This document shows positions 5,053 through 57,259 of a stretch of DNA of 64,000 nucleotides, piece after piece. Source of the stretch: Hyphomicrobiales bacterium (lineage in GTDB: Bacteria; Pseudomonadota; Alphaproteobacteria; Rhizobiales; MH13); contig JAEPOK010000001.1 in NCBI GenBank assembly GCA_017642935.1, forward strand, positions 124,001 through 188,000, in the 5' to 3' direction. The notes under the pieces were generated by a model that was not told the DNA's origin, searched no databases, and saw nothing but the letters and a program-made list of their open reading frames with translations. Every line of letters starts with the position of its first letter. The first letter of the stretch is position 1. A program made the translations under genes and the position numbers.

Positions 5053-5147
5053 GCGTGTCGGCCAATGCGCAGTTGTTTTCGGGAAGCGACGCTAGCGCTT
5101 AGATCTCTCGGGACGCAACCCTACGCTGTTGGAACGGCCACCAACAT

Positions 5148-5163
5148 TCGACCAAATGGTCAA
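5148..5163. promoter_or_regulatory. RutR box in the rutR / pyrimidine operon promoter
   Basis: TCGACCA-AA-TGGTCAA matches the published RutR consensus TTGACCA-NN-TGGTCAA at 15 of 16 positions (14 defined positions differ once). It lies between the divergent rutR gene (start 5052) and the amidohydrolase gene (start 5230), so it could control both. Confidence 0.8.
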
Positions 5164-5229
5164 AATCTTGACGTGGGGCCGTTTGCGGTCTTCACTGCCC
5201 CAAACCGATTTGAACCAGAGGGGAACGCA

Positions 5230-6504
5230 ATGGGTTCAGTGGGCAATCAGTCAGGAAACCAACCTGGAGAAAATCTGCGGATCAATCCGGAGCGCCTTTG
5301 GGATTCGCTGATGGATATGGCGAAGATCGGTCCGGGAATCGCTGGCGGCAACAATCGACAGACGGTGACCGATGAGGATGCTGAGGGTCGTAGGCTTTTC
5401 CAAAAATGGTGTGAAGAGGCTGGCCTCACCATGGGCGTCGATGAGATGGGCACCATGTTCATGCGCCGTGAGGGCACCGACCCCGATGCGCTGCCGGTCT
5501 ATGTCGGATCGCACCTCGATACGCAGCCGACCGGCGGCAAGTATGACGGCGTTCTCGGCGTGCTTGGCGGCCTGGAAATCGTGCGCACGCTCAATGATCT
5601 CGACATTAAGACCAAGCATCCCATCGTCGTCACCAACTGGACCAATGAAGAGGGCACGCGCTACGCCCCGGCCATGATGGCGTCCGGTGTGTTTGCCGGT
5701 GTTCTCGACCAGGCCGATGTCTATGAGCACACCGATGCTGAGGGAAAAAAGTTCGGCGATGAGCTGAAGCGGATAGGCTGGAAGGGCGACGAAAAAGTCG
5801 GCGATCGCAAGATGCACGCTTTCTTTGAGCTGCACATCGAACAAGGCCCGATCCTCGAAGCTGAGGGCAAGGATATTGGCGTTGTCACCCACGGACAGGG
5901 GCTGCGCTGGATTGAATGCACGGTGACCGGCAAGGAGAGCCACACCGGCTCAACACCGATGCCGATGCGCAAGAATGCCGGCCGTGGTTTGGCGCGGATC
6001 ACCGAGCTGGTGCACGAGATCGCGATGGACAATGCGCCCAACGCCGTCGGTGCGATTGGCCATATCGATGTCTATCCCAACAGCCGCAACATCATTCCGG
6101 GCAAGGTGGTTTTCACCGTTGATATGCGCAGCCATGAGCTGGAACGCCTGCAGCGCATGGTGGCGCGGTTTGAAGAAGAAGCACCCAAGCTCTGCGAGGC
6201 GATTGGCGTAGAGCTGAGCTACGAGACGGTGGGTGAATTCGACCCGCCTGCCTTTGATGAAGGCTGTGTTGGCATGATCCGCGATGCTGCCGAGCGTTTG
6301 GGATACTCCCACCGCGATATCGTTTCCGGCGCTGGCCACGATGCCTGCTGGATCAACCGTGTGGCGCCAACCGCCATGGTCATGTGCCCCTGCGTCGATG
6401 GCCTGTCGCATAATGAGGCCGAAGAGATCACCAAGGACTGGGCGCGCGCCGGGGCCGATGTGCTGTTCCACGCGGTGGTGGAAAAAGCGGAGATTGTTGG
6501 GTGA
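5230..6504 (+). CDS. Zn-dependent amidohydrolase, N-carbamoyl-beta-alanine / N-carbamoyl-amino acid hydrolase type
   Basis: M20-family hydrolase of 424 residues. The ATG at 5230 has a strong ribosome site (AGAGGGG); the open frame extends upstream through the promoter and RutR box, so that longer form is rejected. Metal ligands expected for the family are visible: H95 in GSHLD, D106 in YDG, E141 in TNEEG, H202 in ELHIEQGP and H394 in LSHNEAEE. In reductive pyrimidine breakdown this enzyme releases beta-alanine, CO2 and ammonia from N-carbamoyl-beta-alanine. Allantoate or hydantoin-derived carbamoyl amino acids are alternatives, but the RutR control and adjacent dihydropyrimidinase favour pyrimidines. 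Confidence 0.85.
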   Translation: MGSVGNQSGNQPGENLRINPERLWDSLMDMAKIGPGIAGGNNRQTVTDEDAEGRRLFQKWCEEAGLTMGVDEMGTMFMRREGTDPDALPVYVGSHLDTQPTGGKYDGVLGVLGGLEIVRTLNDLDIKTKHPIVVTNWTNEEGTRYAPAMMASGVFAGVLDQADVYEHTDAEGKKFGDELKRIGWKGDEKVGDRKMHAFFELHIEQGPILEAEGKDIGVVTHGQGLRWIECTVTGKESHTGSTPMPMRKNAGRGLARITELVHEIAMDNAPNAVGAIGHIDVYPNSRNIIPGKVVFTVDMRSHELERLQRMVARFEEEAPKLCEAIGVELSYETVGEFDPPAFDEGCVGMIRDAAERLGYSHRDIVSGAGHDACWINRVAPTAMVMCPCVDGLSHNEAEEITKDWARAGADVLFHAVVEKAEIVG

Positions 6505-6512
6505 GAAAACTT

Positions 6513-6552
6513 CACCCCACCCCTAACCCCTCCCCATCAAGGGGAGGGGAAT
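6513..6552 (+). repeat. Palindromic GC-rich repeat, copy A
   Basis: A unit built from CACCCCACCCCTAACCCC followed by a self-complementary CCCCTCCCC...GGGGAGGGG stem. Same orientation as copy C; located just after the amidohydrolase stop. Confidence 0.8.
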
Positions 6553-6581
6553 CTATTCTGAGTTGCGGAGGGCGCGATGCT

Positions 6582-6621
6582 GTCTCCCTCCCCCTTGTGG
6601 GGAGGGATTAAGGGTGGGGGG
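6582..6621 (-). repeat. Palindromic GC-rich repeat, copy B (inverted)
   Basis: The same unit in the opposite orientation, with stem CTCCCTCCCC/GGGGAGGG. It supplies both the probable ribosome site and the GTG start of the DUF559 gene. Confidence 0.8.
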
Positions 6622-7036
6622 CAATCCAGCCATTGCGCGCGCTCGCGCTCTGCGTCACTCCATGACGGAAGGTGAAAAGCGTTTGTGGGCTCGTCTACGA
6701 ACTTTGCGGCGAAGCCACAATCTGCACATTCGCCGGCAAGCACCCATTGGTCCCTACGTGGCGGATTTCGCAGTCCACGATGCGAGGCTGATCATTGAAG
6801 TTGACGGCGAGCACCATCAATCAGCCCAGCAACAAAGCCTCGATGCGCACCGTGAGGTTTGGTTCGCTGGGCAAGGCTATCAAACTCTGCGTTTTTCCAC
6901 CGGCGACTTGATTTCGAATATAGAAGGGTGCCTGCAGGCTATTTTGGATGTGGCTGCACCCCCACCCCTAGCCCCTCCCCACAAGGGGGAGGGGAATGCC
7001 ATCGCGCTTGCCCCAAAATCGGGAGACCAACAATGA
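6614..7036 (+). CDS. DUF559 endonuclease-like protein
   Basis: Small protein of about 140 residues with the DUF559 (Vsr/PD-(D/E)XK-like) core: RARALRHSMTEGEKRLWARL, RRQAPIGPYVADFAVHDARL and LIIEVDGEHH, in which the D of VADF and the E-V-D motif are likely metal-binding. Conserved residues before the ATG at 6662 mean translation should begin earlier; GTG at 6614 with GGAGGG seven bases upstream is my choice. The C-terminus (PPPLAPPHKGEG) is simply the translated third repeat copy. The gene sits inside the pyrimidine operon, bounded by repeats of opposite orientation, which suggests insertion. Its stop overlaps the dihydropyrimidinase start (ATGA). Function unknown. Confidence 0.7.
   Translation: MGGNPAIARARALRHSMTEGEKRLWARLRTLRRSHNLHIRRQAPIGPYVADFAVHDARLIIEVDGEHHQSAQQQSLDAHREVWFAGQGYQTLRFSTGDLISNIEGCLQAILDVAAPPPLAPPHKGEGNAIALAPKSGDQQ
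6957..6996 (+). repeat. Palindromic GC-rich repeat, copy C
   Basis: Third copy, oriented as copy A, with stem CCCCTCCCC / GGGGGAGGGG. It lies within the 3' end of the DUF559 frame and 37 bp before the dihydropyrimidinase start. Confidence 0.8.
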
Positions 7037-8484
7037 CCACCATTATCAAGAACGGCACAATCGTCACCGCCGATCTGACCTACAAGTCCGACATCAGAAT
7101 AGAAGACGGTGTGATCACCGAAATCGGCGAGAACCTCTCCGGCGGCACGGAGCTGGACGCCACGGGCTGCTACGTGATGCCGGGCGGGATCGACCCGCAT
7201 GTGCACCTGGAAATGCCGTTTATGGGCACCTACTCGTCGGACGATTTTGAGTCCGGCACGCGTGCTGGGCTTTCCGGCGGGACGACGATGGTGGTGGATT
7301 TCTGCCTGCCCAACCCTGACCAGAGCCTGCTCGAAGCGTTGCAGCGCTGGGACAACAAATCGACCCGCGCCAACTGCGACTATTCCTTCCACATGGCCAT
7401 CACCTGGTGGGGTGAGCAGGTGTGGAACGAGATGGAGGACGTCACCAAGCGCGGCATCAACACGTTCAAGCACTTCATGGCCTACAAGGGCGCGTTGATG
7501 GTGGACGATGATGAGATGTTCTCATCCTTCCAGCGCTGCGCGGCCATCGGTGCCTTGCCTTTGGTGCATGCTGAAAATGGCGATGTGGTCGCCCAGCTTC
7601 AGCAGAAACTTTTGGCCGAAGGCAACAATGGTCCGGAGGCGCATGCCTATTCTCGCCCTGCCGAAGTGGAAGGAGAGGCGACCAACCGCGCCATCATGAT
7701 CGCTGATATGGCGGGCGTGCCGGTCTACATCGTGCACACCTCGTCTGAGCAGGCGCATGAAGCGATCCGTCGGGCCCGCCAGAACGGCATTCGTGCCTAT
7801 GGCGAGCCGCTGATCCAGCATCTGACACTCGATGATAGCGAATATGCGCATCCCGATTGGGATCATGCCGCGCGCCGGGTGATGAGCCCACCATTCCGCG
7901 ACAAGAAGCACCAAGATAGCTTGTGGGCGGGGCTAGCGGCAGGTTCCCTGCAAGTCGTGGCTACCGATCATTGCGCCTTCACCACCGAGCAAAAACGCAA
8001 CGGCGTCGGCGATTTCACCCTGATCCCCAACGGTACCGGCGGCCTGGAAGATCGCTTGCCGATGCTTTGGACTCACGGCGTGGAAACGGGCCGGCTGACC
8101 ATGAACGAATTTGTCGCCGTCACGTCCACCAACATCGCCAAAATCCTGAACGTCTATCCGAAGAAGGGTGCGATCCTGGAAGGGGCCGATGCTGACATCG
8201 TGGTGTGGGATCCGGCCAAGGAGAAAACAATCACGGCTGACACCCAACAGTCGGCCATCGACTACAATGTGTTTGAGGGCAAGCATGTGAAAGGCCTGCC
8301 GCGATACACGCTGACACGTGGCGTGGTGGCTGTGGATGATGGCGAGGTGAAGACGCGTGAAGGGCACGGCAAGTTCGTTGCTCGCGAGCCGTTCCAGGCG
8401 GTGAACACTGCGCTTTCCACCTGGAAAGAGGTGACCGCGCCAAGGAAAGTGGAGCGCACTGGCATTCCGGCGAGCGGGGTGTGA
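7033..8484 (+). CDS. D-hydantoinase / dihydropyrimidinase
   Basis: Cytosolic ring-opening amidohydrolase of 483 residues, normal for the family. Dizinc-site motifs are all present: H56 and H58 in DPHVHLE, the carboxylated lysine in FMAYKG (K152), H179 in LVHAENGD, H235 in YIVHTSS and D312 in VATDHCAF. It converts dihydrouracil or dihydrothymine to the N-carbamoyl-beta-amino acid, which the preceding amidohydrolase then cleaves. The ATG overlaps the DUF559 stop by four bases. The operon thus holds steps two and three of reductive pyrimidine catabolism. Use of other 5-substituted hydantoins cannot be excluded. Confidence 0.92.
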   Translation: MTTIIKNGTIVTADLTYKSDIRIEDGVITEIGENLSGGTELDATGCYVMPGGIDPHVHLEMPFMGTYSSDDFESGTRAGLSGGTTMVVDFCLPNPDQSLLEALQRWDNKSTRANCDYSFHMAITWWGEQVWNEMEDVTKRGINTFKHFMAYKGALMVDDDEMFSSFQRCAAIGALPLVHAENGDVVAQLQQKLLAEGNNGPEAHAYSRPAEVEGEATNRAIMIADMAGVPVYIVHTSSEQAHEAIRRARQNGIRAYGEPLIQHLTLDDSEYAHPDWDHAARRVMSPPFRDKKHQDSLWAGLAAGSLQVVATDHCAFTTEQKRNGVGDFTLIPNGTGGLEDRLPMLWTHGVETGRLTMNEFVAVTSTNIAKILNVYPKKGAILEGADADIVVWDPAKEKTITADTQQSAIDYNVFEGKHVKGLPRYTLTRGVVAVDDGEVKTREGHGKFVAREPFQAVNTALSTWKEVTAPRKVERTGIPASGV

Positions 8485-9012: not shown

Positions 9013-9075
9013 TTGGCGATTTGGCAAACATCTTGCTTTGCTGAGAACCAGCAAGACCCCGATGAAAGTTTCCGC

Positions 9076-9867
9076 GTGACGACCCCACCCGTTATATCCG
9101 CCAAGAATCTTGATCTCACCTTCACCACCAATGATGGGCCGGTGCATGCTCTGTCCGACGTCAATTTGGACATCCACAAGGGCGAGTTCGTTTCGTTCAT
9201 CGGGCCGTCGGGCTGCGGCAAGACCACGTTTCTGCGCGTGATCGCCGATCTGGAAAGCCCGACCGGTGGCACGATCAAAGTGGATGGGACCACGCCGCAT
9301 CAGGCCCGGCTGAACCGCGCTTATGGCTATGTGTTCCAGGCCCCGGCGCTCTATCCCTGGCGCACGATTGAAGCCAACATTACGCTGCCGCTGGAGATCA
9401 TGGGCTTTTCCAGATCCGAACAGCGGGAGCGGGCCGAAAAGGCGCTGGCGCTGGTGGATCTGGCAGGTTTTGGCAAGAAGTTTCCCTGGCAGCTTTCTGG
9501 CGGCATGCAGCAGCGTGCCAGCATTGCTAGGGCCTTGGCCTTCGATGCCGATATCCTGCTGATGGATGAACCGTTTGGCGCGTTGGATGAGATTGTCCGC
9601 GACCACCTGAACGAACAGCTTTTGAAGCTTTGGGACCGGACCAACAAGACGATCTGCTTCGTCACCCACTCGATCCCGGAGGCGGTCTATCTCTCCACCA
9701 AGATCGTCGTGATGAGCCCGCGCCCGGGCCGTGTGACGGATGTGATCGAGTCGACACTGCCGAAGGAGCGTCCACTGGATATTCGTGAGAGCAAAGAGTT
9801 TCTCGATATAGCGCATCGCGTGCGTGAGGGCCTGCGGGCTGGCCATGCTTATGAGGAGGTTGTTTGA
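9076..9867 (+). CDS. ABC transporter ATPase, nitrate/taurine/pyrimidine class
   Basis: Energises the importer encoded downstream. About 263 residues from GTG at 9076; an ATG at 9013 is in frame but adds residues from the intergenic repeat and is unlikely. Walker A GPSGCGKTT, Q-loop VFQAPALYPW, signature LSGGMQQR, Walker B ILLMDEPFGALDE and H-loop VTHSIPEA are intact. Relatives serve substrate-binding proteins of the NMT1/THI5 type such as the one ending this operon. Ribosome site before GTG is weak. Confidence 0.88.
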   Translation: MTTPPVISAKNLDLTFTTNDGPVHALSDVNLDIHKGEFVSFIGPSGCGKTTFLRVIADLESPTGGTIKVDGTTPHQARLNRAYGYVFQAPALYPWRTIEANITLPLEIMGFSRSEQRERAEKALALVDLAGFGKKFPWQLSGGMQQRASIARALAFDADILLMDEPFGALDEIVRDHLNEQLLKLWDRTNKTICFVTHSIPEAVYLSTKIVVMSPRPGRVTDVIESTLPKERPLDIRESKEFLDIAHRVREGLRAGHAYEEVV

Positions 9868-10481: not shown

Positions 10482-11063
10482 ATGAATGAATCAGCTCAAA
10501 TGCCGTCGGTCAACGGAACGGTGACGGACGATCGCGCCCCAGAATCGTTCGAAATCGCTTACCCGAGAAGGCCATTTATCGTCTTGCTCGGTGTGGTTCT
10601 CACCACAGTGTGTGGCGGATTGGCTACGCTGTTTTTCTCCATGACCTTCCACGCCTTGGGCGTTGGTGGTGAACCCGCAGAAGAGCCAACTGTGATTGTC
10701 TTTTCTGTTGTCGGTTTGCTTTTTACCTTGATCGGAACGGCAACGTTCGCGGTCGATGTTGCTTGGTTCACCGCACGACGCGAAACGCTCACCATCAAAA
10801 CCGACGCTTTGGTTCGGACGTTCCGATGTCTGAGTTATTCAAAAGTCACCCTCTATTCGTTTGCGAAGCTGGACACGGTTCGATTTGTTGCGGAGCATTG
10901 GCGCAGTGGAGTTGGGAAAGATCAGCTGGTGCATGCTCACCTTGCTTCCTCCTACTCTGGAAAAGCGATCAAGTTGGCCCATGGTCTGAGCGCAGACCAG
11001 GCGCGTGAAATTCTGCGAGCACTTGCCGACACCGGTCGCGTTGACGTGGAGCCAGTTGCATGA
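10482..11063 (+). CDS. Two-helix membrane protein, probable paralogue of the preceding gene
   Basis: About 193 residues from ATG 10482. Two membrane helices at about 30-58 and 73-97 are followed by a soluble C-terminal domain with the same order of elements as the upstream neighbour. Its stop overlaps the first permease start (ATGA), so it is translationally tied to the importer. Codon use seems somewhat less GC-rich than the flanking transporter genes. Possibly an accessory or regulatory subunit of the importer; this is inference from position only. Confidence 0.6.
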   Translation: MNESAQMPSVNGTVTDDRAPESFEIAYPRRPFIVLLGVVLTTVCGGLATLFFSMTFHALGVGGEPAEEPTVIVFSVVGLLFTLIGTATFAVDVAWFTARRETLTIKTDALVRTFRCLSYSKVTLYSFAKLDTVRFVAEHWRSGVGKDQLVHAHLASSYSGKAIKLAHGLSADQAREILRALADTGRVDVEPVA

Positions 11064-11938
11064 TCGCCCGCTCGATCCTCCCCATTCTCACGGTCCTCTC
11101 GATCATCCTCGCCGTTTGGTACGGCGGGGCCGTGGCCATGAACTGGCGCATCGAGGCGGAACGTTTCGAGCGCATGGGGCTGGAAAAAACCACCATGGAA
11201 ATGGTCCAGGCGACGATGGCCATGGACCGGCCGGTGCTGCCGGCGCCGCATCAGGTCTGGGTCGAATTCCAGGAGAGTGTCTTCGAGCGCAACCCGTCCT
11301 CGCCGCGCAGCCTGGTGTTCCACGCCTGGATCACGCTGTCGTCGTCGCTGGTGGGGTTTGCGATGGGCACCTTGCTCGGCATTCTGCTGGCCGTCGGGAT
11401 CGTCCATTCCAAAGTGCTCGACAAATCCCTTCTTCCCTGGATCATCGCCTCGCAGACCATTCCCATCCTCGCCATCGCACCGATGATCATCATCGTCTTT
11501 TCAACGCTTGGCGTGCAGGGGCTGATCCCCAAGGCCTTCATCTCCACCTATCTGGCGTTTTTCCCGGTCGCCATCGGCATGACCAAGGGGCTGCGCTCGC
11601 CCGAAGCCATGCACCTTGATCTGATGCACACGTATAACGCGACGCGCAGCCAGACCTTTTGGAAGCTGCGGCTGCCTGCCTCGCTGCCCTATCTGTTTGC
11701 CTCGATGAAGATTGCCGTGGCCATCTCGCTGGTCGGCGCCATTGTCGGCGAGTTGCCAACCGGCGCGCAGGGCGGCATCGGCGCGCGGCTGCTCAACAGC
11801 TCTTATTACGGTCAGACCATCCAGATCTGGGCGGCGCTGTTTGCTGCTGCCTTTATGTCGGCGTTGCTCGTCTATGCCATTGGCTGGATCGGCGCGGTTG
11901 TGAACAAGCGCATGGGTGCGCGTGAGGCGGCAGTATGA
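11060..11938 (+). CDS. ABC transporter permease 1 (pyrimidine-type importer)
   Basis: BPD-type permease of 292 residues with an N-terminal helix, a periplasmic stretch (residues about 30-80), and a core with five helices. The ATPase-docking loop is visible around residues 185-210 (DLMHTYNATRSQTFWKLRLP). Pairs with the next gene as a heterodimer. ATGA overlaps join it to both neighbours. Confidence 0.88.
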   Translation: MIARSILPILTVLSIILAVWYGGAVAMNWRIEAERFERMGLEKTTMEMVQATMAMDRPVLPAPHQVWVEFQESVFERNPSSPRSLVFHAWITLSSSLVGFAMGTLLGILLAVGIVHSKVLDKSLLPWIIASQTIPILAIAPMIIIVFSTLGVQGLIPKAFISTYLAFFPVAIGMTKGLRSPEAMHLDLMHTYNATRSQTFWKLRLPASLPYLFASMKIAVAISLVGAIVGELPTGAQGGIGARLLNSSYYGQTIQIWAALFAAAFMSALLVYAIGWIGAVVNKRMGAREAAV

Positions 11939-12810
11939 TGGGCCTCACCGGAACCAGTATTCTTTGGGCTGCGCTTGCTTTCTGGATCGTCGCCTGGGCC
12001 GCCAACCAACGGCTTGCCGGGCTGAACCTTTCCGGTGCGCCCAAGGTGCTGGTGAACCTTCTGATCCCGGTGCTGTTTGGCGCGACGCTTCTGGTGCTCT
12101 GGGAAGGGGTTACGCGCGGGCTGGATGTGCCCCAGGTGGTGATGCCACCGCCGTCCATGGTGTGGGAGCGGATCGTTTCGAGCACCGATATTCTCTGGGC
12201 CGACTTCCAACAAACGTTCTTGAAAGCTGTCATCGCAGGCTACGTCATGGGCTGCGGGCTGGGGTTTGTGGTCGCGATCCTGGTGGACCGTTCGCCGTTC
12301 TGGAAAGCAGGCATCATGCCGGTGGGCAATCTGATGTCGGCCCTGCCGATCATCGGGATAGCGCCTATCATGGTGATGTGGTTCGGCTTCGACTGGCCTT
12401 CCAAGGCCGCGGTCGTCGTCGTGATGACGTTCTTCCCGATGCTGGTGAACACGTTGGCGGGCCTTAACGCTTCAGGCCAGATGGAAAGGGATTTGATGCA
12501 CACTTACGCATCATCCTATCCGCAAACGCTGATCAAGCTGCGCTTGCCTGCGGCGATGCCGTTCATCTTCAATGCACTCAAAATCAACTCCACTCTGGCG
12601 CTTATTGGAGCAATCGTTGCAGAATTTTTCGGCACGCCAATTGTTGGCATGGGCTTTCGAATCTCTACTGCTGTCGGCAGCCTCAACATTGATCTGGTGT
12701 GGGCAGAAATTTTCGTCGCCGCCTTGGCAGGCTCGCTCACCTATGGTGCGATAGCTTTGATCGAACGGCGCGTGACGTTCTGGCATCCGTCCAACCGGCG
12801 GGCGCGATAG
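11935..12810 (+). CDS. ABC transporter permease 2 (pyrimidine-type importer)
   Basis: Second permease, 291 residues, with six predicted helices and the EAA-like loop (RDLMHTYASSYPQTLIKLRLP). It resembles permease 1 in overall layout, consistent with a heterodimeric channel. The start overlaps the previous stop by four bases. RutR control and the adjacent catabolic enzymes suggest uptake of uracil, thymine or a related ring; direct evidence is lacking. Confidence 0.88.
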   Translation: MMGLTGTSILWAALAFWIVAWAANQRLAGLNLSGAPKVLVNLLIPVLFGATLLVLWEGVTRGLDVPQVVMPPPSMVWERIVSSTDILWADFQQTFLKAVIAGYVMGCGLGFVVAILVDRSPFWKAGIMPVGNLMSALPIIGIAPIMVMWFGFDWPSKAAVVVVMTFFPMLVNTLAGLNASGQMERDLMHTYASSYPQTLIKLRLPAAMPFIFNALKINSTLALIGAIVAEFFGTPIVGMGFRISTAVGSLNIDLVWAEIFVAALAGSLTYGAIALIERRVTFWHPSNRRAR

Positions 12811-12875: not shown

Positions 12876-13871
12876 ATGAAAACCGCAACCAAACTTTTGG
12901 CAGGGGGCGCATTGCTTGCCTCATCCTTTGCGATGACCGCACCGGCGCTGTCGGCAGATGAGCTGACACTGCAGCTGAAATGGGTCACGCAGGCGCAGTT
13001 TGCCGGCTACTATGTGGCGCTGCATGAGGGGCTCTATGAGGCTGAAGATCTTGATGTCACCATCAATCCGGGTGGCCCGGATATCGCACCGCCGCAGGTG
13101 ATTGCTGGTGGTGCTGCCGATGTGATCGTTGAGTGGATGCCGGCTGCTTTGGCTGCGCGTGAGCGTGGTGTGCCGCTGGTCAACATCGCTCAGCCGTTTG
13201 CCCGTTCTGGCATGATGCTAACCTGTCGCGCCGATAGCGGTGTGACCTCACCGGAGGATTTCCCGGGCGAGACGTTGGGCGTCTGGTTCTTCGGCAATGA
13301 GTATCCGTTCCTGTCCTGGATGAGCCAGCTTGGCATTCCCACCGATGGTGGTGATGAAGGCGTGACGGTTGTGCGTCAGGGCTTCAACGTTGATCCGCTC
13401 ATTCAAGGTCAGGCCGCTTGCGTGTCGACCATGAACTACAATGAATATTGGCAGGTGATCGACGCTGGGTTCTCGCCGGACGATCTGGTGGTGTTCAACT
13501 ACACCGACCAAGGCGTCGCGACGCTGGAAGACGGTCTTTATGTGCTCGAAGAGTCGCTGGAAGACCCTGAAATGGTCGACAAGCTGACCCGCTTCGTGCG
13601 GGCCTCGATGGCGGGCTGGAACTGGGCGCAGGAAAACCCTGAAGAAGCGGCGATGATCGTGCTGGAGTATGACCAGACCGGCGCACAGACTGAAGCGCAT
13701 CAGATCCGCATGATGGGTGAGATCAACAATCTGACGGCCGGGTCCACCGGCGCGCTGGATGTGGCGGCCGCCGAGACAACGGTCGACTCGCTGCTCTTTG
13801 GTGGCGATGATCCAGTGATCACCGAGCGCCCAACCGGTGCTTGGACATCCGTCATCACGGACGGCTTGTAA
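12876..13871 (+). CDS. ABC transporter substrate-binding protein, NMT1/THI5-like
   Basis: Periplasmic binding protein of 331 residues. ATG 12876 follows AAGGAG and opens a signal peptide (MKTATKLLAGGALLASSFAM, cleavage near LSA-). The mature start LTLQLKWVTQAQFAGYYVAL is the hallmark of the ThiY/NMT1 group, which bind pyrimidine-like molecules (thiamine precursors, riboflavin precursors, pyrimidines). Last gene of the operon, followed by a strong terminator. Ligand inferred from context to be a pyrimidine base or dihydropyrimidine. Confidence 0.88.
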   Translation: MKTATKLLAGGALLASSFAMTAPALSADELTLQLKWVTQAQFAGYYVALHEGLYEAEDLDVTINPGGPDIAPPQVIAGGAADVIVEWMPAALAARERGVPLVNIAQPFARSGMMLTCRADSGVTSPEDFPGETLGVWFFGNEYPFLSWMSQLGIPTDGGDEGVTVVRQGFNVDPLIQGQAACVSTMNYNEYWQVIDAGFSPDDLVVFNYTDQGVATLEDGLYVLEESLEDPEMVDKLTRFVRASMAGWNWAQENPEEAAMIVLEYDQTGAQTEAHQIRMMGEINNLTAGSTGALDVAAAETTVDSLLFGGDDPVITERPTGAWTSVITDGL

Positions 13872-20471: not shown

Positions 20472-20500
20472 TTGACCGAAATTTGACCAAATGGTCTAGT
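20472..20500 (+). promoter_or_regulatory. Candidate promoter of the F420 operon
   Basis: TTGACC (20472-20477) and TCTAGT (20495-20500) are separated by 17 bp, a reasonable sigma-70-like arrangement. The RutR box covers the spacer and reaches into the -10 element, a position that suits repression. Confidence 0.5.
20483..20498. promoter_or_regulatory. RutR box upstream of the F420 operon
   Basis: TTGACCA-AA-TGGTCTA differs from the RutR consensus TTGACCA-NN-TGGTCAA at one base. It lies 64 bp before the cofG ATG. The core GACCAAATGGTC is identical to that in the box beside rutR. No other match this good was found by eye in the window. Confidence 0.78.
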
Positions 20501-20561
20501 TTCCTCTGAAAGCGGTTGCGCTCGCCAGAAAGTGCCCGCTGATGTCGAGGGGACAGGCCTT

Positions 20562-21719
20562 ATGGTCAGCCTGCACGAGGCAGTTGCATATGAACATGCA
20601 GGCGAAAGTTTGCGCCGCGAACTCGCGCGTCAGGCGTCTGCCATCCGCTCTGCCCAATGGGGCGACACGGTCACCTATTCCCGCAAAGTGTTTGCGCCGC
20701 TGACCACCATGTGCCGCGACACCTGCGGCTACTGCACCTTCGTCAAGCACCCCGATGATCCCGGCGCCTTCATCATGACACCGAACGAGGTTCTCGCCAC
20801 CGCCCGCAAGGGCGAAGACACTGGCTGCAAGGAGCTGCTCTTCTCGCTGGGTGAAAAGCCTGAGCAGCGCTACGAGAAAGCCGCCGAGGCGCTGGCCAAG
20901 TGCGGCTATTCCAGCATGATCGACTATCTGGCCGCCGTGTGTGCGCTGGTGCTGGAAGAAACCTCGCTGCTGCCGCACGTCAACGCCGGTACGCTAACGG
21001 ACCAAGAGATCGAGACATTGAAGCCGGTTTCGGCCAGTATGGGCATGATGCTGGAGACGGTCTCCAACCGGCTGATGCAGCCGGGCATGCCGCACCATCA
21101 ATGCCCCGATAAAACGCCAAAGGCGCGGCTGCGCACGCTTGAGGTTGCCGGGCGCAACAAGGTGCCGTTCACCACCGGGCTGCTCATCGGGATTGGTGAG
21201 ACCTGGGCTGAGCGCGTCGAAGCGCTGTTTGCGATCAATGCAGCACACCGCCGCCATGGTCACATCCAGGAAGTGATCATCCAGAATTTTCGCGCCAAGC
21301 CGGGCATCGCCATGGCCGATCATCCCGAACCGTCGCTGGACGATATGCTGCTGACGCTTGCCACCGCGCGGCTGATACTGGACCCGTCGATCAGCCTGCA
21401 GGCGCCGCCCAACCTGTCGGCGCGACATGCCGCGTATCTGGATGCCGGGATCAATGATTGGGGTGGGATTTCGCCGGTGACGCGTGACTTCATCAATCCC
21501 GAACGCCCGTGGCCGCAGCTGGATGGGCTCGCCAAGGCCTGCGCCGAAAAGGGTCTGAAATTGCAGGAGCGGCTCACCGTCTATCCGAGTTATCTGCAAT
21601 CTGGCGGTTATGTGGCGCCGCCTGTCGCCGCGCGGGCGAAGGCCATGGCGCGCCGGGATGGGTTGGCGCTTTCCCAGGCGTTGGAGCAAGAGGGGGAGGC
21701 TGCCCATGCTGCTGCCTAA
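20562..21719 (+). CDS. cofG: FO synthase subunit CofG (radical SAM)
   Basis: Radical-SAM enzyme of 385 residues that, with CofH, joins 5-amino-6-ribitylaminouracil-derived material to tyrosine-derived carbon to form the deazaflavin FO. The 4Fe-4S motif CRDTCGYC (C51, C55, C58) is intact, preceded by VTYSRKVFAPLTTM. TGLLIGIGETWAERVEAL and IQEVIIQNFRAKPG are typical of CofG. ATG 20562 follows GAGGGGA; a GTG at 20532 is less likely. First gene of the F420 operon, overlapping cofH by 14 bp. Confidence 0.93.
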   Translation: MVSLHEAVAYEHAGESLRRELARQASAIRSAQWGDTVTYSRKVFAPLTTMCRDTCGYCTFVKHPDDPGAFIMTPNEVLATARKGEDTGCKELLFSLGEKPEQRYEKAAEALAKCGYSSMIDYLAAVCALVLEETSLLPHVNAGTLTDQEIETLKPVSASMGMMLETVSNRLMQPGMPHHQCPDKTPKARLRTLEVAGRNKVPFTTGLLIGIGETWAERVEALFAINAAHRRHGHIQEVIIQNFRAKPGIAMADHPEPSLDDMLLTLATARLILDPSISLQAPPNLSARHAAYLDAGINDWGGISPVTRDFINPERPWPQLDGLAKACAEKGLKLQERLTVYPSYLQSGGYVAPPVAARAKAMARRDGLALSQALEQEGEAAHAAA

Positions 21720-22971
21720 ACCGGCCTCCTCGCCGGTGCGGGCGATCCTCGATCAGGCGCTGGCTGGCAAAGATGTGACCCGCGAGCAGGGCACTGTTCT
21801 GTTTCAGGCGCGCGGCGCTGATCTGGAAGCCATTGTTGCCGTTGCCGACCAGCTACGCCGCCAGGCGGTGGGCGATGAGGTGACGTTTGCCGTCAACCGG
21901 AACATCAACTTCACCAACATCTGCTACATGGGCTGCCAGTTCTGCGGCTTTGCCAAGCGCATGGAAGAGGACGGCGCGGAGTTCCTGTCGCTGGAAACCG
22001 TTGTCGCCCGCGCCCGCGAAGCCTGGGACCGCGGCGCCACGGAGGTCTGCATCCAGGGTGGGCTGCACCCGAAGATGAAGGGCACGCATTACCGCGATAT
22101 TCTGCTCGCCATCAAAGCCGAGCTGCCGGACATGCATATCCACGCGTTCTCACCGTTCGAGATCTGGTATGGCGTGAAAAAGACCGGCATGAGCATCGAA
22201 GACTTTCTCACCGATCTCAAATCCTGCGGATTGGGGTCGATGCCGGGCACGGCGGCGGAGATTTTGGACACTGAGATCCGCAAAGTGCTGACCCGAGACA
22301 AGCTTACTGCCGATGAGTGGGTGGAGATCATATCCACTGCGCATCATGTTGGCATTCAGACCACCGCGACGATCATGTACGGGCACGTCGATGGGCCGGA
22401 ACACTGGTCGGATCATCTGGTGCGTATTCGCGACATTCAGGTAATTAGTCGCGACAAAACCGGCGGTAGTCGCGACAAAGAGGGGGCGTATTCTTTCCGT
22501 GGTTTTACGGAGTTCGTGCCGCTGTCGTTCGTGCACGAGGACGCACCGCTTTACCGCAAGGATCCCTCGGCGGTGCGACCCGGTCCGACCCGCGAAGAGG
22601 TGGTTTTGATGCACGCCGTCTCGCGGATCATGCTTCACAGATACATTGATAACATCCAGGTTTCCTGGACCAAGCTCGGCCCAGAAATGGCGCAGGCGAT
22701 GCTTGCCTGCGGCGTCAATGATTTGGGCGGTACGCTGATGAATGAGAGCATCTCGCGGGCCGCTGGCGCCAAGAATGGGCAGGAGGTTACGGCCCACGAG
22801 ATGGTGCGAATCATCCGCTCTGCAGGTCGGGTGCCTGTGCAACGGAATACGCTCTACGGAACGATCCAACGCTTTGATAAAGTTGATCCTTTGGCGCTTG
22901 ACCCACTGGTCGACCGCAAGGGCGCTGACCCTCTTTCCTTCCTAGAGAAGGGTGAGCGCAAACGTGCCTAA
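21706..22971 (+). CDS. cofH: FO synthase subunit CofH (radical SAM)
   Basis: Partner of CofG, 421 residues. The cluster motif is CYMGCQFC (C73, C77, C80), with NRNINFTNI before it and VCIQGGLHPKMKG, HAFSPFEIWYG and TTATIMYGHVD following, all typical. Between RIRDIQ and GFTEFVPLSFVHE there is an unusual insert of about 20 residues containing the doubled SRDK, caused by a 13-bp direct repeat. The frame stays open. ATG 21706 follows a strong GGGGGAGG site. Bacterial operons with separate cofG and cofH, rather than fused fbiC, are common outside Actinobacteria. Confidence 0.93.
   Translation: MLLPKPASSPVRAILDQALAGKDVTREQGTVLFQARGADLEAIVAVADQLRRQAVGDEVTFAVNRNINFTNICYMGCQFCGFAKRMEEDGAEFLSLETVVARAREAWDRGATEVCIQGGLHPKMKGTHYRDILLAIKAELPDMHIHAFSPFEIWYGVKKTGMSIEDFLTDLKSCGLGSMPGTAAEILDTEIRKVLTRDKLTADEWVEIISTAHHVGIQTTATIMYGHVDGPEHWSDHLVRIRDIQVISRDKTGGSRDKEGAYSFRGFTEFVPLSFVHEDAPLYRKDPSAVRPGPTREEVVLMHAVSRIMLHRYIDNIQVSWTKLGPEMAQAMLACGVNDLGGTLMNESISRAAGAKNGQEVTAHEMVRIIRSAGRVPVQRNTLYGTIQRFDKVDPLALDPLVDRKGADPLSFLEKGERKRA
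22446..22479 (+). repeat. 13-bp direct repeat inside cofH
   Basis: TAGTCGCGACAAA occurs twice with starts 21 bp apart (seven codons), so the frame is preserved. Each copy contains the palindrome GTCGCGAC. It underlies the extra loop in CofH. Confidence 0.85.
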
Positions 22972-23890
22972 AGTGACCCTTCTTGCAGGCGGTGTCGGTG
23001 GCGCCAAAATGGCTGAAGGTCTGGCCGCCCTGGACGATGTCGAGCTGACGATCATCGGCAACATCGCCGATGATGATCAGTTTCACGGGCTTTGGGTCTC
23101 GCCAGATATCGACACGGTGACATACACGCTGGCTGGCCTCATTGACCGTCAGCAGGGCTGGGGTGTTGCCGATGAGGGGCTGCGGGCGCTCGGCGTTTTG
23201 GAGACGCTTGGCGAGCACACTTGGATGACGCTTGGCGACAAAGACCTTGGCTTGCATATCTATCGTACCATGCGCCGCCATGAGGGCGATCGGCCCAGCG
23301 ATATTGCCCGCCACATCGCTAAGGCTTTCGGGGTTGAACCAACAATTGTCCTGCCGACGGACGATTGGATGCAAACGCGGTTGGTGACCGATATCGGGCC
23401 GCTCAGCTTCCAGGAATATTTCGTGCGCGAGAAGTGCAAACCTGACGTTCAGGAGATTTGGTTTGAGGGTGTTGAGTTCGCCAAGCCGACGCCGGAAGCG
23501 TTGGAAGCCCTTGAAAATGCGGACCTTATTATTGTTGCTCCGTCCAACCCGCTGGTGAGCATTGATCCCATTCTTGCGATCCCCGGCATGCATGACGCTC
23601 TGGTGGAGGCCCCCGCTTCGGTGATCGCCGTCAGTCCATTGATCGCGGGCAAAACCGTGAAGGGGCCCGCAGCACGGATGATGACAGGCGTTGGTCTTGA
23701 AGCGTCGGCGCTGGGTGTCGCGCGGCACTATCAGGGGCTGGTCGATTGCCTGGTGATCGACAATCAGGATGCCGCGCTTGAAGCCGACATCGAAGCGCTC
23801 GGCATGGATGTCTCGGTCACCGACATCATGATCGGAACGCCGGAGCGCAAGCGAACGCTGGCGGCCCATTTGGCGGAGGTGGGGATGTGA
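22952..23890 (+). CDS. cofD: Phospholactate/PEP transferase CofD (F420 biosynthesis)
   Basis: Transfers the phospho-acid tail from its guanylylated donor to FO, giving F420-0 or a variant. 312 residues, begins with VTLLAGGVGGAKMAEGLAAL and the IIGNIADDDQFHGLWVSPD motif, both family signatures. ADLIIVAPSNPLVSIDPIL and SPLIAGKTVKGPA are also present. GTG at 22952 chosen because AGAGAAGG precedes it; overlaps cofH by 20 bp. Confidence 0.93.
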   Translation: MSANVPKVTLLAGGVGGAKMAEGLAALDDVELTIIGNIADDDQFHGLWVSPDIDTVTYTLAGLIDRQQGWGVADEGLRALGVLETLGEHTWMTLGDKDLGLHIYRTMRRHEGDRPSDIARHIAKAFGVEPTIVLPTDDWMQTRLVTDIGPLSFQEYFVREKCKPDVQEIWFEGVEFAKPTPEALEALENADLIIVAPSNPLVSIDPILAIPGMHDALVEAPASVIAVSPLIAGKTVKGPAARMMTGVGLEASALGVARHYQGLVDCLVIDNQDAALEADIEALGMDVSVTDIMIGTPERKRTLAAHLAEVGM

Positions 23891-24534
23891 GCTCGCCCAA
23901 CCCATCGCTTTGCGTCGTGATCCCGATGAAAGACCCCGACCAGGCGAAGACCCGGCTCGGCGACACGCTGCCGGCGAAGACGCGCGCGGCCCTGACGCGT
24001 ACCTTGTTCCGGCAAACGCTGCGGGTGCTGAAGTCTCTCGATCAAGATCTGCACATTGTGGTGGTCACCGATTCCGATGCCATTGCCGAAATCTGTCTGC
24101 CATTTCGTGTGCAGGTGCTCGGTGACCCAGGAGGCGGGTTGAACGCTGCCGTGAAAGCGGGCGTCGACTATGCGGCGCACCATCGTTTTGCGAGCCTCTG
24201 TGTTCTGCCCGGTGATCTCGCCGACCCGTCGCGCGATGACCTGACCGCGCTGTTGGCGATGCCGCGCGAGGAGAAGTCCGTGATCCTCGCACCCGCCCAT
24301 GATGGCGGGACAAACGCGCTGGTGGTCACCCCGCCGGACGCCATGACCTTCGCGTACGGCCCGGACAGCTGTGCGGCTCATCAGGCTCTGGCGGAAAAGT
24401 CTGGCCTTTCTTGTGTGGTGATGCCGCTGCCAAGCCTGCTCTACGATGTGGATCGTTCCTCTGATCTCGGCGCCCGTTTGGTGCGGGGGCTCGATCGCTC
24501 GCTTGGTGCTTTCGGCAAGGGGGTGGCTGGATGA
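23887..24534 (+). CDS. cofC: Guanylyltransferase CofC/FbiD (F420 tail activation)
   Basis: 215 residues starting at GTG overlapping the cofD stop (GTGA). Nucleotidyltransferase motifs: CVVIPMKDPDQAKTRLGDTL near the start and VLPGDLADPSRDDLTALL mid-protein. Activates 2-phospho-L-lactate, PEP or 3-phosphoglycerate with GTP, depending on lineage. Some proteobacterial enzymes prefer 3-phosphoglycerate, giving 3PG-F420; which acid is used here cannot be read directly. Confidence 0.9.
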   Translation: MSSPNPSLCVVIPMKDPDQAKTRLGDTLPAKTRAALTRTLFRQTLRVLKSLDQDLHIVVVTDSDAIAEICLPFRVQVLGDPGGGLNAAVKAGVDYAAHHRFASLCVLPGDLADPSRDDLTALLAMPREEKSVILAPAHDGGTNALVVTPPDAMTFAYGPDSCAAHQALAEKSGLSCVVMPLPSLLYDVDRSSDLGARLVRGLDRSLGAFGKGVAG

Positions 24535-25304
24535 GGCGCGCGGAGATCCTAGCTGTACCTGGTCTGCCGGAAGTGAAAGCCGGCGATGATCTGGCGACCC
24601 TTATCGGCGATGCGCTGGTCGTAGCTGATCTTGTTCCCGGCGATGGCGACGTCCTGACCCTTGCCCACAAGATCGTCTCCAAAGCCGAGGGGCAGGTGAG
24701 ACGACTGGCCGACATCACGCCGGGTGACGAAGCGCTGCAGTATGGCGAAGAGCTTGCCAAAGACCCGCGCAAAGTTCAGGCCGTTCTTGATGAAAGCACC
24801 CGCGTGGTTCGCGCATTCAAACATCCCCATGCCAAGGAAGGCACGATGATTTGCGAGCATCGGTTGGGGCTGATTTCCGCCAATGCGGCTGTGGATGAAA
24901 GCAACACAGGCGGTGCGGATGAGGTGATCCTGCTGCCCAAGGACCCAGATGCCAGCGCCCGAGCGCTTCGTGATGCGCTTCAAGTGCGCTTTGGCGCAGA
25001 TATCGGCGTGATCATCACCGACACGTTTGGCAGGCCATGGCGTCTTGGCCAAGTGAATGTGGCCATCGGCTTGGCCGGTGTCCCAGCGCGGATCAATGAA
25101 GCCGGTGGACACGATGCGCGCGGGCGCGAGTTAAAGGTGACCGAGCCAGCCTTTGCCGATGAGGTGGCGGCCGCCTCCGGCTTGGTGATTGGCAAAGCGG
25201 CGCAAACGCCGGTGGTGCTTTTTCGCGGCCTTGATTGGCCGCCAACAAATGAGGCGCGGGGGGCTGACCTGATCCGCGCGCAAAGCGAGGATATGTTTCG
25301 ATGA
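24531..25304 (+). CDS. cofE: F420-0:L-glutamate ligase CofE
   Basis: Adds the glutamate tail to F420-0 using GTP. 257 residues: a single CofE domain without the C-terminal nitroreductase-like part of mycobacterial FbiB. Family motifs include [50 protein letters not shown] and [15 protein letters not shown] overlaps with neighbours on both sides. Confidence 0.93.
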
Positions 25305-25969
25305 CGATTGCGATAGTCGGGGGCACAGGCCCTCAGGGAAAAGGGTTGGCCCTGCGGTTTGCCCGCGCTGGTGTGCCGGTGGCCATCGGGTCGCGCGATG
25401 GTGGGCGCGCGGCGGACATAGCGGCGGAGCTTTCAGGCCAGCTTGGTAGTGACGCTGCCCCCATCTCTGGCCATAGCAACGAGGATGCCGTTGCCGCCGC
25501 TGATCGGATCGTGATCCTTTCGGTGCCCTATGCCGGGCACAACGCCACGCTGGAGCAGATCAAAGGCGCACTTTCCGGCAAAATCCTGGTCGATATCGTC
25601 GTGCCGCTCGCGCCCAACGATCCGAAAATCGTTGAGATGCCCCCAGAAGGCTCGGCCACCGAGGCGGCGCAGGCCCTTATTGGTGACGACATTCCCGTTA
25701 TCGGCGCTTTGCACAATGTGTCTGCGGCGACGCTCAACAACCTTGATTGGGATATCAATTGCGACATCCTGGTCTGCGGCAACTCGCTGGATGCCCGTAA
25801 AGAGGTGATGGCGCTGGTCAAAAAGCTGGGTGTGGAAGCCTACAATGCCGGTGGTGCCAGTGCGGCGCGGTGCATCGAGGCGATCACGCCCATTCTCATC
25901 CGTATCAATATTTCCAAGCAGGTGCCGTTCACCCATGCGGGCATCAAGATCTGGCCACCTGCCCATTAA
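25301..25969 (+). CDS. npdG: NADPH:F420 oxidoreductase (NpdG/Fno)
   Basis: 222-residue Rossmann enzyme that moves hydride between NADPH and F420. It opens [20 protein letters not shown], the NpdG signature, then [18 protein letters not shown], where the serine and arginine after the second strand fit NADPH selection. [17 protein letters not shown] and [11 protein letters not shown] are family motifs. Placed between the F420-making genes and the F420-using oxidoreductase, so its natural job here is probably to supply F420H2. Confidence 0.92.
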
Positions 25970-26006
25970 GCTTCACTGAGTTCAACAAATAAGAGGGAGT
26001 AAACCG

Positions 26007-27011
26007 ATGGAATTTGGGATTACATTTAAGGGCTTTGTGGAGCCAGACCGCGCACGCGCTTTGGTACGCCAAGCGGAGAATGCAGGCTTCACCTATTGCT
26101 GGTTCTACGACAGCCACATTCTTTGGCGTGAGAGCTTTGCTGCTATGGCCATGTGCATGGAGCACACCAAGACCATGCGGTTTGGTCCCTGCGTGACCAA
26201 CCCGAACACCCGCGATTGGTCGTTGGCTGCGTCCATGTTCGGCTCCCTTGCCAAACAGTCCGGAGGCCGGTTCGACATCGGTGTTGGTCGCGGCGACAGC
26301 GCCGTGCGCGTGATGGGCAAAAAGCCGGCCAAGCTCGCCGTGCTGGAAGAGTTCATCACCAAGGTCAAAGCCATGGTGCGCGGCGAAGAGGTGACCTACG
26401 GCGATGTGCCTGCGCCGATTCAGTTTCCCTGGGCTACCGGCTACGAGCTGCCGGCTTGGGTCGCCGCATACGGCCCAATGGCGTTGAAGTCAGCCGGCAA
26501 GGTCGGTGACGGTTTGATCCTGCAAATCGCCGAGCCGGGCATCTGCAAATGGCTAGCCGACCAGGCTATCGCCGCCGGAAACGAGGCAGGCCGTGACATG
26601 TCAAACTTCAAGGTGATGTCCGCGGCACCGGCCTATATCGGTGAGATGGCCGAAGCGCGCGAAGCGACCAAATGGTTCCCCGCCATGGTTGGCAACCACG
26701 TTGCCGATATTGTCGAGAAGTATGGCGCTGATACCGATCTGGTGCCGCAGAGCCTGACCGCCTATGTGGAGAAGCGTCGCGGCTACGACTATTCCAAGCA
26801 CGGCCAGAGCGACAATCCGTATCTCGATTTCATCACCGATGACATCATCGACGGGTTCGCCGTTCTCGGCTCTGTGGATGACCACATCGCCAAACTTCAA
26901 GAGCTGGAAAGCGTGGGTGTGACCCAGTTCAACATCTATCTGGATAATGGCGATGAAGAGAACATCATCGCGCGCTACGGCGATACGATCATCCCTGCGA
27001 TGACGAGCTAA
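26007..27011 (+). CDS. Luciferase-like (LLM) F420-dependent oxidoreductase
   Basis: TIM-barrel LLM protein of 334 residues with a good ribosome site (GAGGGAG). Begins EFGITFKGFVEPDRARALV; FGPCVTNPNTRDWSLAASMF and GRFDIGVGRGDSAVRVMG are the flavin/F420-binding regions. It resembles methylenetetrahydromethanopterin reductase relatives, and from memory the group named after CPS_4043. The gene starts 37 bp after npdG and precedes the terminator, so it is the dedicated user of the cofactor made by this operon. RutR control, and the fact that RutA (the uracil oxygenase) is also an LLM protein, make a pyrimidine ring reduction or oxidation plausible. The substrate is unproven. Confidence 0.85.
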   Translation: MEFGITFKGFVEPDRARALVRQAENAGFTYCWFYDSHILWRESFAAMAMCMEHTKTMRFGPCVTNPNTRDWSLAASMFGSLAKQSGGRFDIGVGRGDSAVRVMGKKPAKLAVLEEFITKVKAMVRGEEVTYGDVPAPIQFPWATGYELPAWVAAYGPMALKSAGKVGDGLILQIAEPGICKWLADQAIAAGNEAGRDMSNFKVMSAAPAYIGEMAEAREATKWFPAMVGNHVADIVEKYGADTDLVPQSLTAYVEKRRGYDYSKHGQSDNPYLDFITDDIIDGFAVLGSVDDHIAKLQELESVGVTQFNIYLDNGDEENIIARYGDTIIPAMTS

Positions 27012-27051
27012 CAAGACGTCTTCAAAGGACGCGCACTGAGCAGAGCGACTG

Positions 27052-27080
27052 GCCGGCGGCGTAGCCGCCGGCTTGATTTT
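27052..27080 (+). terminator. Rho-independent terminator of the F420 operon
   Basis: Perfect 9-bp stem GCCGGCGGC / GCCGCCGGC with a three-base loop, followed by TTGATTTT, 40 bp after the oxidoreductase stop. Confidence 0.85.
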
Positions 27081-56033: not shown

Positions 56034-56124
56034 GACGCAATGTCCAGGTCTCTTCAGGGGAACGGCGCACCCTTGTTTTTAGGCGCGCCGTTACAGTGTC
56101 GTCGGGGGGAGGAATTGAAAAGGG

Positions 56125-57156: not shown

Positions 57157-57259
57157 CAAGGACTCCGCTGTTTTTTGTGCGCATGCGTCGCGCATGTTTG
57201 GCCTGCCACTATAGGTTAGCCATTTTTGGGGCACAGTCCGGTTCGCTCGATGCGCTCAG

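Follow-up and report, generated by a model that had tools for sequence, protein, structure and literature searches.

We analysed a stretch of 64,000 nucleotides (the window) from a Hyphomicrobiales bacterium, which contains an operon for coenzyme F420 that ends in the gene of a luciferase-like monooxygenase (LLM)-type enzyme of the TIGR03842 family. Our results suggest that this bacterium probably makes F420 in response to uracil, for the first step of uracil breakdown, via an enzyme that is unrelated to the usual one. The reduction of uracil and thymine by F420H2 is, in our prediction, very likely the main function of the LLM enzyme. The same reaction had been proposed in a first-pass annotation of this DNA, and it is the reading that fits our results best: neither PreA nor RutA was found in the genome, and the enzymes of both downstream steps are encoded under the same type of box as the F420 operon.

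The F420 operon (window 20532-27011) is compact and has the gene order cofG-cofH-cofD-cofC-cofE-npdG-LLM. All seven genes score above the curated cut-offs of their NCBIfam families, and since these include CofG, CofH, CofD, CofC and CofE, the gene set for F420 biosynthesis is complete at this locus. The features of the operon are listed below, with family scores in bits.

20482-20499, plus strand: RutR-type box upstream of cofG, TTTGACCAAATGGTCTAG; matches the pattern perfectly, as does just one other site in the genome
20532-21719, plus strand: cofG, FO synthase subunit (TIGR03550, 464.9; cut-off 213.35)
21706-22971, plus strand: cofH, FO synthase subunit (TIGR03551, 500.8; cut-off 374.1)
22952-23890, plus strand: cofD, 2-phospholactate (or analogue) transferase (TIGR01819, 280.9; cut-off 257.45)
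23887-24534, plus strand: cofC, guanylyltransferase (TIGR03552, 150.5; cut-off 105)
24531-25304, plus strand: cofE, F420 glutamate ligase (TIGR01916, 255.3; cut-off 180.65)
25301-25969, plus strand: npdG, NADPH:F420 reductase (TIGR01915, 188.9; cut-off 149.8)
26007-27011, plus strand: TIGR03842 LLM enzyme, proposed F420H2-dependent dihydropyrimidine dehydrogenase (TIGR03842, 508.0; cut-off 295.45; fold closest to F420-dependent Mer; linkage)
27051-27080, plus strand: intrinsic-terminator-like hairpin with T-rich tail (sequence and fold score)

Successive genes overlap, with a 37-base gap 5' of the LLM gene as the sole exception, and these overlaps suggest a single transcript for the whole operon. 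The gene content is that described in the first-pass annotation, except that the start of cofH had to be corrected to near ATG 21706. The terminator that had been predicted 3' of the operon corresponds to a hairpin of 10 pairs (27051-27073) that is followed by a T-rich tail (fold z -2.71). Since terminator-like sites are no commoner in the region than in shuffled sequences (5 vs 6.8), we base the terminator on this single strong hairpin. A good sigma-70 promoter was looked for at the cofG box and none was found.

The predicted RutR-type box at the 5' end proved to be a perfect match to the pattern TTTGACCANNTGGTCNA, located approximately 30 bases before the first possible cofG start. When the whole 3.74 Mb genome was scanned with this pattern, two perfect matches were recovered, which front the F420 operon and a pyrimidine operon 15 kb apart. 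At one mismatch seven rows are listed, one of them being the second site on the other strand, vs one row for the control, in which the pattern was read backwards. The remaining four one-mismatch sites lie inside long open frames and were rejected as further RutR targets; for one of them (L006) the surrounding frame runs from stop to stop and its true start is unsettled. The earlier annotation, which had made the link to a pyrimidine sensor, had omitted the rutR gene itself (4438-5052), the divergent box and the amidohydrolase and dihydropyrimidinase genes (5230-8484), all of which are found in the same window. The features of this second region are the following.

4438-5052, minus strand: RutR-type TetR regulator (NF011584, 235.3; cut-off 230; TIGR03613, 251.7; cut-off 368, not reached), 50% identical to E. 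coli RutR
5147-5164, listed on the plus strand: RutR-type box that separates rutR from the pyrimidine operon; the other of the two perfect matches in the genome (pattern at 5148-5164, minus strand)
5230-6504, plus strand: M20-type N-carbamoyl amidohydrolase, presumed N-carbamoyl-beta-alanine amidohydrolase (TIGR01879, 385.9; cut-off 204; NF006769, 690.2; cut-off 452); start ATG 5230 from the sequence
7033-8484, plus strand: dihydropyrimidinase (TIGR02033, 580.5; cut-off 393.25); start ATG 7033 from the sequence
9013-9867, plus strand: ATP-binding protein of the ATP-binding cassette (ABC) transporter of the pyrimidine operon (open frame, ABC ATPase motifs by eye; homologues in the same place in preTA operons)
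11060-11938, plus strand: ABC transporter permease 1 (PF00528)
11935-12810, plus strand: ABC transporter permease 2 (PF00528)
12876-13871, plus strand: NMT1/THI5-type substrate-binding protein (PF09084)

The regulator gene is divergent from the amidohydrolase, dihydropyrimidinase and ABC transporter genes, and the second box lies between them. The regulator scores above the cut-off of NF011584; we call it RutR-type because it does not reach that of TIGR03613, a strict one that is passed by one of 14 control genomes. Uracil is contacted by five residues in the structure of E. coli RutR (W77, Y97, W167, Q171 and Q179; PMC10891134), and these are kept in all 33 RutR sequences that we aligned, namely those of the window and of E. 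coli, one from Leisingera and 30 that adjoin the LLM in 28 further loci. Two loci, L106 (3208-4503, adjacent genes) and L043, contain two RutR-type genes each, all with the five uracil contacts.

The substrate of the amidohydrolase is presumed, since its best NCBIfam subfamily is named allantoate amidohydrolase. The interval 6510-7010, which separates its gene from that of dihydropyrimidinase, contains, as judged by eye, a partial reading frame and short palindromic repeats that are C-rich/G-rich. For the step that precedes dihydropyrimidinase, the genome, which is 98.8% complete, was searched for PreA with PF01180 and NF006183, and none was found. The one full PF01180 protein is a quinone-type PyrD, and a further weak match is an IMP dehydrogenase by eye. 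RutA was likewise not found in the genome; rutB-G lay outside this genome-wide search. Two LLM proteins are encoded, the TIGR03842 protein and an alkanesulfonate-monooxygenase-like one, and the latter was rejected as a RutA. With no PreA or RutA found, uracil reduction is a step without a known enzyme here. A dihydropyrimidine dehydrogenase elsewhere in the genome, which the earlier annotation had named as an observation that would speak against its proposal, did not emerge from the PF01180 and NF006183 searches.

The LLM enzyme (334 residues) belongs to TIGR03842 (F420_CPS_4043), a "hypothetical equivalog" without an assigned function. It matches PF00296 only and is not of the PF01180 type, so that by NF006183 it is not a member of the PreA/PydA family. 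Its predicted fold (mean predicted local distance difference test score 85.6, predicted template modelling score 0.88) is nearest to F420-dependent Mer and other F420 hydride transferases, with Z of about 34-35 for Mer vs about 24.5 for RutA. The closest solved relatives by sequence are also F420-dependent Mer proteins (E 1.6e-27), while the score with the Mer model TIGR03555 (125.6) is below its cut-off (348.7). The RutA model TIGR03612 is absent among the 20 NCBIfam families that the LLM matches at E 1e-3. A RutA-like origin of the LLM enzyme was therefore rejected on family and fold scores, and the earlier argument from RutA, that LLM folds can act on pyrimidine rings, turns out to be weak.

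The comparison with Mer also bears on the active site. The pterin site of Mer includes Glu6, which is catalytic, residue 178 and Asp96, which contacts the pyrimidine ring of the pterin (PMC11094777; residue 178 is printed there as Gln178 and is an Asn by count in the aligned chain). In the LLM enzyme D97, corresponding to Asp96, and the carboxamide Q173 at the 178 site are kept in all rows of three alignments. The catalytic Glu6, in contrast, is absent: all 35 rows of alignment A2 have Thr or Cys at this position, and two deeper-clade rows of alignment A3 have Ala or Val. Since D97 and Q173 are kept and there is no Glu6, the active site, as predicted from these alignments, fits hydride transfer to a bare pyrimidine ring rather than methylene-pterin reduction.

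We then surveyed the gene neighbourhood of the LLM in related loci (denoted L), taking the best 80 of 461 candidates, which are mostly from marine Alphaproteobacteria together with Marinomonas and other Gammaproteobacteria. NpdG adjoins the LLM in 69 of these 80 loci, and dihydropyrimidinase and/or amidohydrolase are encoded within 10 kb of it in 46, although in two of the latter (L046 and L059) the enzyme matches are weak. A RutR-type gene is found near the LLM in 28 loci, and PreA/PreT beside it in none of the 80. Several Marinomonas loci have a dihydropyrimidinase that is cut by the end of the stretch; among the 44 loci in which both flanks cover at least 9 kb, 34 contain one or both pathway enzymes.

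Some of these neighbourhoods contain further parts of a pyrimidine pathway. On a plasmid of Leisingera aquaemixtae the F420 operon, with a RutR-type gene 3' of it, is divergent from pntA-pntB and from genes for an omega-aminotransferase (AptA model 742 bits, cut-off 500), amidohydrolase, dihydropyrimidinase and an NCS1 nucleobase transporter. In L. caerulea, where the stretch that was read ends at the hydrolase, the arrangement is the same to that point. The transhydrogenase PntBA as a source of NADPH would fit NpdG running towards F420H2. In Paracoccus denitrificans DSM 413 (L071), whose genome has no PreA, genes for NCS1, dihydropyrimidinase and amidohydrolase are divergent from the F420 operon, which is followed by a RutR-type gene. 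Finally, in Streptomyces sp. BHT-5-2 (L139, the one actinobacterial locus of the survey, in a record without gene annotation there) an LLM of a deeper clade, 42-43% identical, directly follows dihydropyrimidinase; genes for a carbon-nitrogen hydrolase and an aminotransferase are located a few kb 5' of the pair.

Three groups of loci differ in their F420 genes or LLM copies. In Roseibium aggregatum (L060, 3931-9768) the F420 genes include a glucose-6-phosphate:F420 dehydrogenase (TIGR03554 490.5 bits, cut-off 420), which by its family is another predicted source of F420H2; an 832-residue open frame at the cofH match of this locus is likely a fused cofGH, and the F420 genes face the LLM across a RutR-type box. 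A deeper alphaproteobacterial sub-clade, represented by the genomes G196 and G289 (L131-L135, one family), has several TIGR03842 copies, some in tandem, of which the three aligned are 54-56% identical to the window protein. There, npdG and cof genes lie near some of the copies, and dihydropyrimidinase is absent from the stretches read and present elsewhere in both genomes; these copies may have other substrates. In ten loci of small-genome marine bacteria (L073, L074, L076, L080, L085-L088, L090 and L093), the genes matched before the LLM are limited to cofD, cofE and npdG. Up to 10 kb upstream there was no match to cofG, cofH or cofC, and FO synthesis is therefore encoded elsewhere or missing.

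At the level of whole genomes we examined 49 named genomes with the LLM, drawn from 50 of the 80 loci. Dihydropyrimidinase is above its cut-off in all 49, and PreA is below its cut-off or absent in 43. We also used a class sample of 385 Alphaproteobacteria (genomes denoted G), in which, at the thresholds used, the LLM is found in 6 genomes, PreA in 63 and dihydropyrimidinase in 113, and the LLM together with PreA in none. Among the 113 genomes with dihydropyrimidinase, 58 have PreA, 5 the LLM and none both (Fisher p 0.025); among the 74 with a dihydropyrimidinase at E <= 1e-170, a limit set post hoc, the numbers are 56, 5 and none (p 5e-4).

The LLM is also found in the place that preTA has in other operons. 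Twelve PreA-bearing stretches were picked from the class sample, mostly for the proximity of PreA to dihydropyrimidinase. PreT is found beside PreA in all twelve, and amidohydrolase and dihydropyrimidinase in ten each. Nine of the stretches have a RutR-type gene, and seven have all four genes of the ABC transporter. In L145, L147, L149 and L150 the order is preT-preA, rutR, amidohydrolase, dihydropyrimidinase and ABC transporter, with an aminotransferase preceding the amidohydrolase in L147. L044, and L045 as far as its contig runs, show the identical order with cofGHDCE-npdG-LLM in the position of preTA. In six further loci (L040, L048, L056, L079, L084 and L105) the LLM is encoded directly 5' of amidohydrolase-dihydropyrimidinase-ABC on the same strand, with no cof gene in the stretch, and it is preTA that has this position before the amidohydrolase in L148, L151, L153 and L154. 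From these gene orders we propose that the LLM occupies the slot of preTA by non-orthologous displacement. The slot comparison, the linkage in many genomes and the similar gene sets of Leisingera and Streptomyces add further support to uracil/thymine reduction by the enzyme.

The box itself could be followed upstream of cofG in 48 loci, namely those among the 80, and three on plasmids, that contain cofG and a sufficient length of sequence before it. In 30 of them there is a box with no more than 3 mismatches in 16 positions, compared to 0.05 expected from dinucleotide shuffles. As controls, the positions upstream of cofE (0 of 69), npdG (0 of 70), dihydropyrimidinase (0 of 38) and cofD (2 of 65) were used; both cofD matches are from L060 and L081, where cofD faces the LLM. 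Before the amidohydrolase the box is found in 5 of 47 loci.

A number of observations weigh against our interpretation. Upstream of cofG, the number of mismatches exceeds 3 in 18 of the 48 loci and 4 in 11 of them, and RutR control is therefore not claimed for all loci. The box is unrecognisable in P. denitrificans DSM 413 and in both Leisingera loci, despite the adjoining RutR-type gene, and a looser form of the motif, tried on the loci without a box, did not rescue these cases. For the window and many of its relatives, predicted RutR control has good support. The regulator of the window, moreover, falls short of TIGR03613, and TIGR02033 also matches hydantoinases of other pathways. Six of the 49 LLM genomes (Ruegeria, Shimia, three Limimaricola and Thalassovita) have PreA above the cut-off, and a seventh, Cohaesibacter marisflavi, has a weaker PreA-like match below it; the LLM is therefore not always the only route. 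In the class sample, 50 of the 113 dihydropyrimidinase genomes, and 13 of the 74 strong ones, have neither PreA nor the LLM, and G258 has the LLM operon and no dihydropyrimidinase at the threshold used. Nine of the 44 well-covered loci contain no pathway enzyme or regulator nearby, and in Paracoccus alcaliphilus no pathway enzyme is encoded up to a distance of 11 kb. Finally, most relatives, the six loci with only the LLM included, share 75-80% identity and do not count as independent events, and the class genomes G288 and G366 share contigs with L105 and L056.

Some of these observations could mean that the F420 and pyrimidine operons are merely co-regulated neighbours and that F420 serves an unrelated stress or xenobiotic reductase, as in mycobacteria. 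The nine loci without pathway genes, P. alcaliphilus and G258 would be expected in that case. Yet in all nine a RutR-type box with no more than 3 mismatches is retained, either upstream of cofG or in the interval from the LLM to cofD, the LLM stands directly before the pathway genes without cof genes in six loci, and dihydropyrimidinase accompanies it in every one of the 49 genomes, which makes such a coincidence very improbable. We regard it as equally far-fetched that the LLM is a RutA-like ring-opening oxygenase, or an enzyme that uses flavin mononucleotide (FMN), with F420 serving something else. The enzyme does have an LLM fold, and RutA, of the same superfamily, acts on uracil (RutA-uracil structures are among the fold matches). 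Its model is, however, much closer to F420 hydride transferases than to RutA, which favours a reductase, and the other LLM protein of the genome is not of the F420 type. Furthermore, dihydropyrimidinase needs a dihydro substrate, and the E. coli Rut proteins are weakly matched in 4 of the 80 loci, in two of which the match belongs to the glucose-6-phosphate:F420 dehydrogenase family.

More serious, but still unlikely, is the explanation that the LLM is an F420H2-dependent reductase of a pyrimidine pathway whose true substrate would be some modified or related ring (only thymine, pyrimidines with methyl or hydroxymethyl groups, or barbiturate-like or hydantoin-like compounds), with uracil used poorly. 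The dihydropyrimidinase and M20 amidohydrolase families accept several cyclic amides and N-carbamoyl compounds, and the coexistence of PreA and the LLM in six genomes could mean a division of labour. Against this, the other 43 of the 49 LLM genomes, and that of the window, have no PreA above the cut-off, which would leave their uracil reduction unassigned, and the regulator keeps its uracil contacts. We thus favour uracil and thymine as the substrates of the LLM enzyme.

The mechanism that we propose is as follows. The products of cofGHDCE would make F420, and NpdG would reduce it with NADPH. With F420H2 as its real cofactor and in the reductive direction, the LLM enzyme would transfer a hydride to the C5=C6 bond of uracil or thymine, and the resulting dihydropyrimidine would be converted by dihydropyrimidinase and the N-carbamoyl amidohydrolase to beta-alanine (or its methyl form), ammonia and CO2. 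RutR would sit on the boxes of both operons and be released by uracil, and the cofactor, its reductase and the enzyme that uses it would be made together when pyrimidine is present. In this scheme the LLM enzyme would replace PreTA/PydA by non-orthologous displacement. With some reserve we lean towards a more general model, in which the whole F420 pathway of these Proteobacteria serves a single catabolic reaction, whose substrate induces the pathway, TIGR03842 is a general F420H2-dependent dihydropyrimidine dehydrogenase that also occurs in Actinobacteria, and F420 is scarce in cultured alphaproteobacteria as these had not been grown on pyrimidines.

Other genes of the window also relate to nucleobases. 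A cytosine deaminase is encoded at 53080-54354 (NF005759 590.3 bits, cut-off 403), and cytosine deamination would feed uracil into the pathway. 3' of its gene (region 53080-57234) there are ABC-transporter-like genes by eye, without an NCBIfam match, and an adenine-deaminase-like protein is encoded at 45194-47005 (TIGR01178 347.3 bits, below the cut-off of 472.5). The region may be a nucleobase-use island.

If true, our proposal would explain what F420 does in many marine bacteria and assign a function to the conserved TIGR03842 family, which has none. Besides NAD(P)H and ferredoxin, uracil reduction would gain another redox partner, and the operon would provide a case of a cofactor pathway that is turned on by the substrate of the one enzyme known to use the cofactor. 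Predictions of "no uracil degradation" in marine genomes without PreTA and Rut would also have to be corrected. According to a 2021 review, no F420H2-dependent reductase or F420-reducing dehydrogenase of bacteria outside the Actinobacteria had been investigated, the role of F420 in these bacteria needed experiment, and trace F420 had been reported in P. denitrificans (PMC8498797). Our proposal names a substrate, an enzyme, a regulator and a growth condition, and makes the role of F420 in Proteobacteria directly testable, for example in P. denitrificans. No paper naming an F420-dependent uracil or pyrimidine catabolic reductase was found among the open-access papers searched, with subscription papers and preprints outside the scope. 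The RegPrecise regulon tables behind PMC5343134 might already list cof genes as RutR targets.

Compared to known systems, the arrangement is most like the reductive Pyd/Pre pathway, with which it shares dihydropyrimidinase, N-carbamoyl amidohydrolase, RutR and the ABC transporter, in the order seen in several preTA operons, and in some loci an aminotransferase or an NCS1 transporter. It differs in its first enzyme, which is a 334-residue protein of the LLM fold instead of a PF01180 protein with its flavin partner PreT, and which is proposed to need a dedicated cofactor pathway. The Rut pathway, which is oxidative and FMN dependent, has in common with it RutR control, an LLM fold and a pyrimidine substrate, whereas only weak Rut matches occur beside the LLM here. 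Mer is the closest protein in fold and sequence and matches D97 and Q173 of the LLM at its Asp96 and 178 site, but the LLM is below the TIGR03555 cut-off and is without the catalytic Glu6. A cofactor variant of the same first step is the ferredoxin-dependent PydA of Clostridium chromiireducens, which is still a dihydroorotate-dehydrogenase-type enzyme (PMC7332683). Two further proteins can be set beside the LLM by their description. The putative F420 "yanthine reductase" of uric acid clusters in Chloroflexota (PMC12507026) is a luciferase-family F420 protein for a nucleobase-derived ring, also proposed from gene neighbourhood, but it belongs to a purine pathway in another phylum. SSGG-03002 / NpsU of uridyl peptide antibiotics (PMC10714638) is a putative F420/FMN oxidoreductase that, by genetics and nuclear magnetic resonance, reduces C5-C6 of a uracil moiety; it acts in secondary metabolism, and its authors saw no product in vitro. 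Taken together with these systems, we propose that the operons of the window represent a variant of the known pyrimidine pathway with a different first enzyme.

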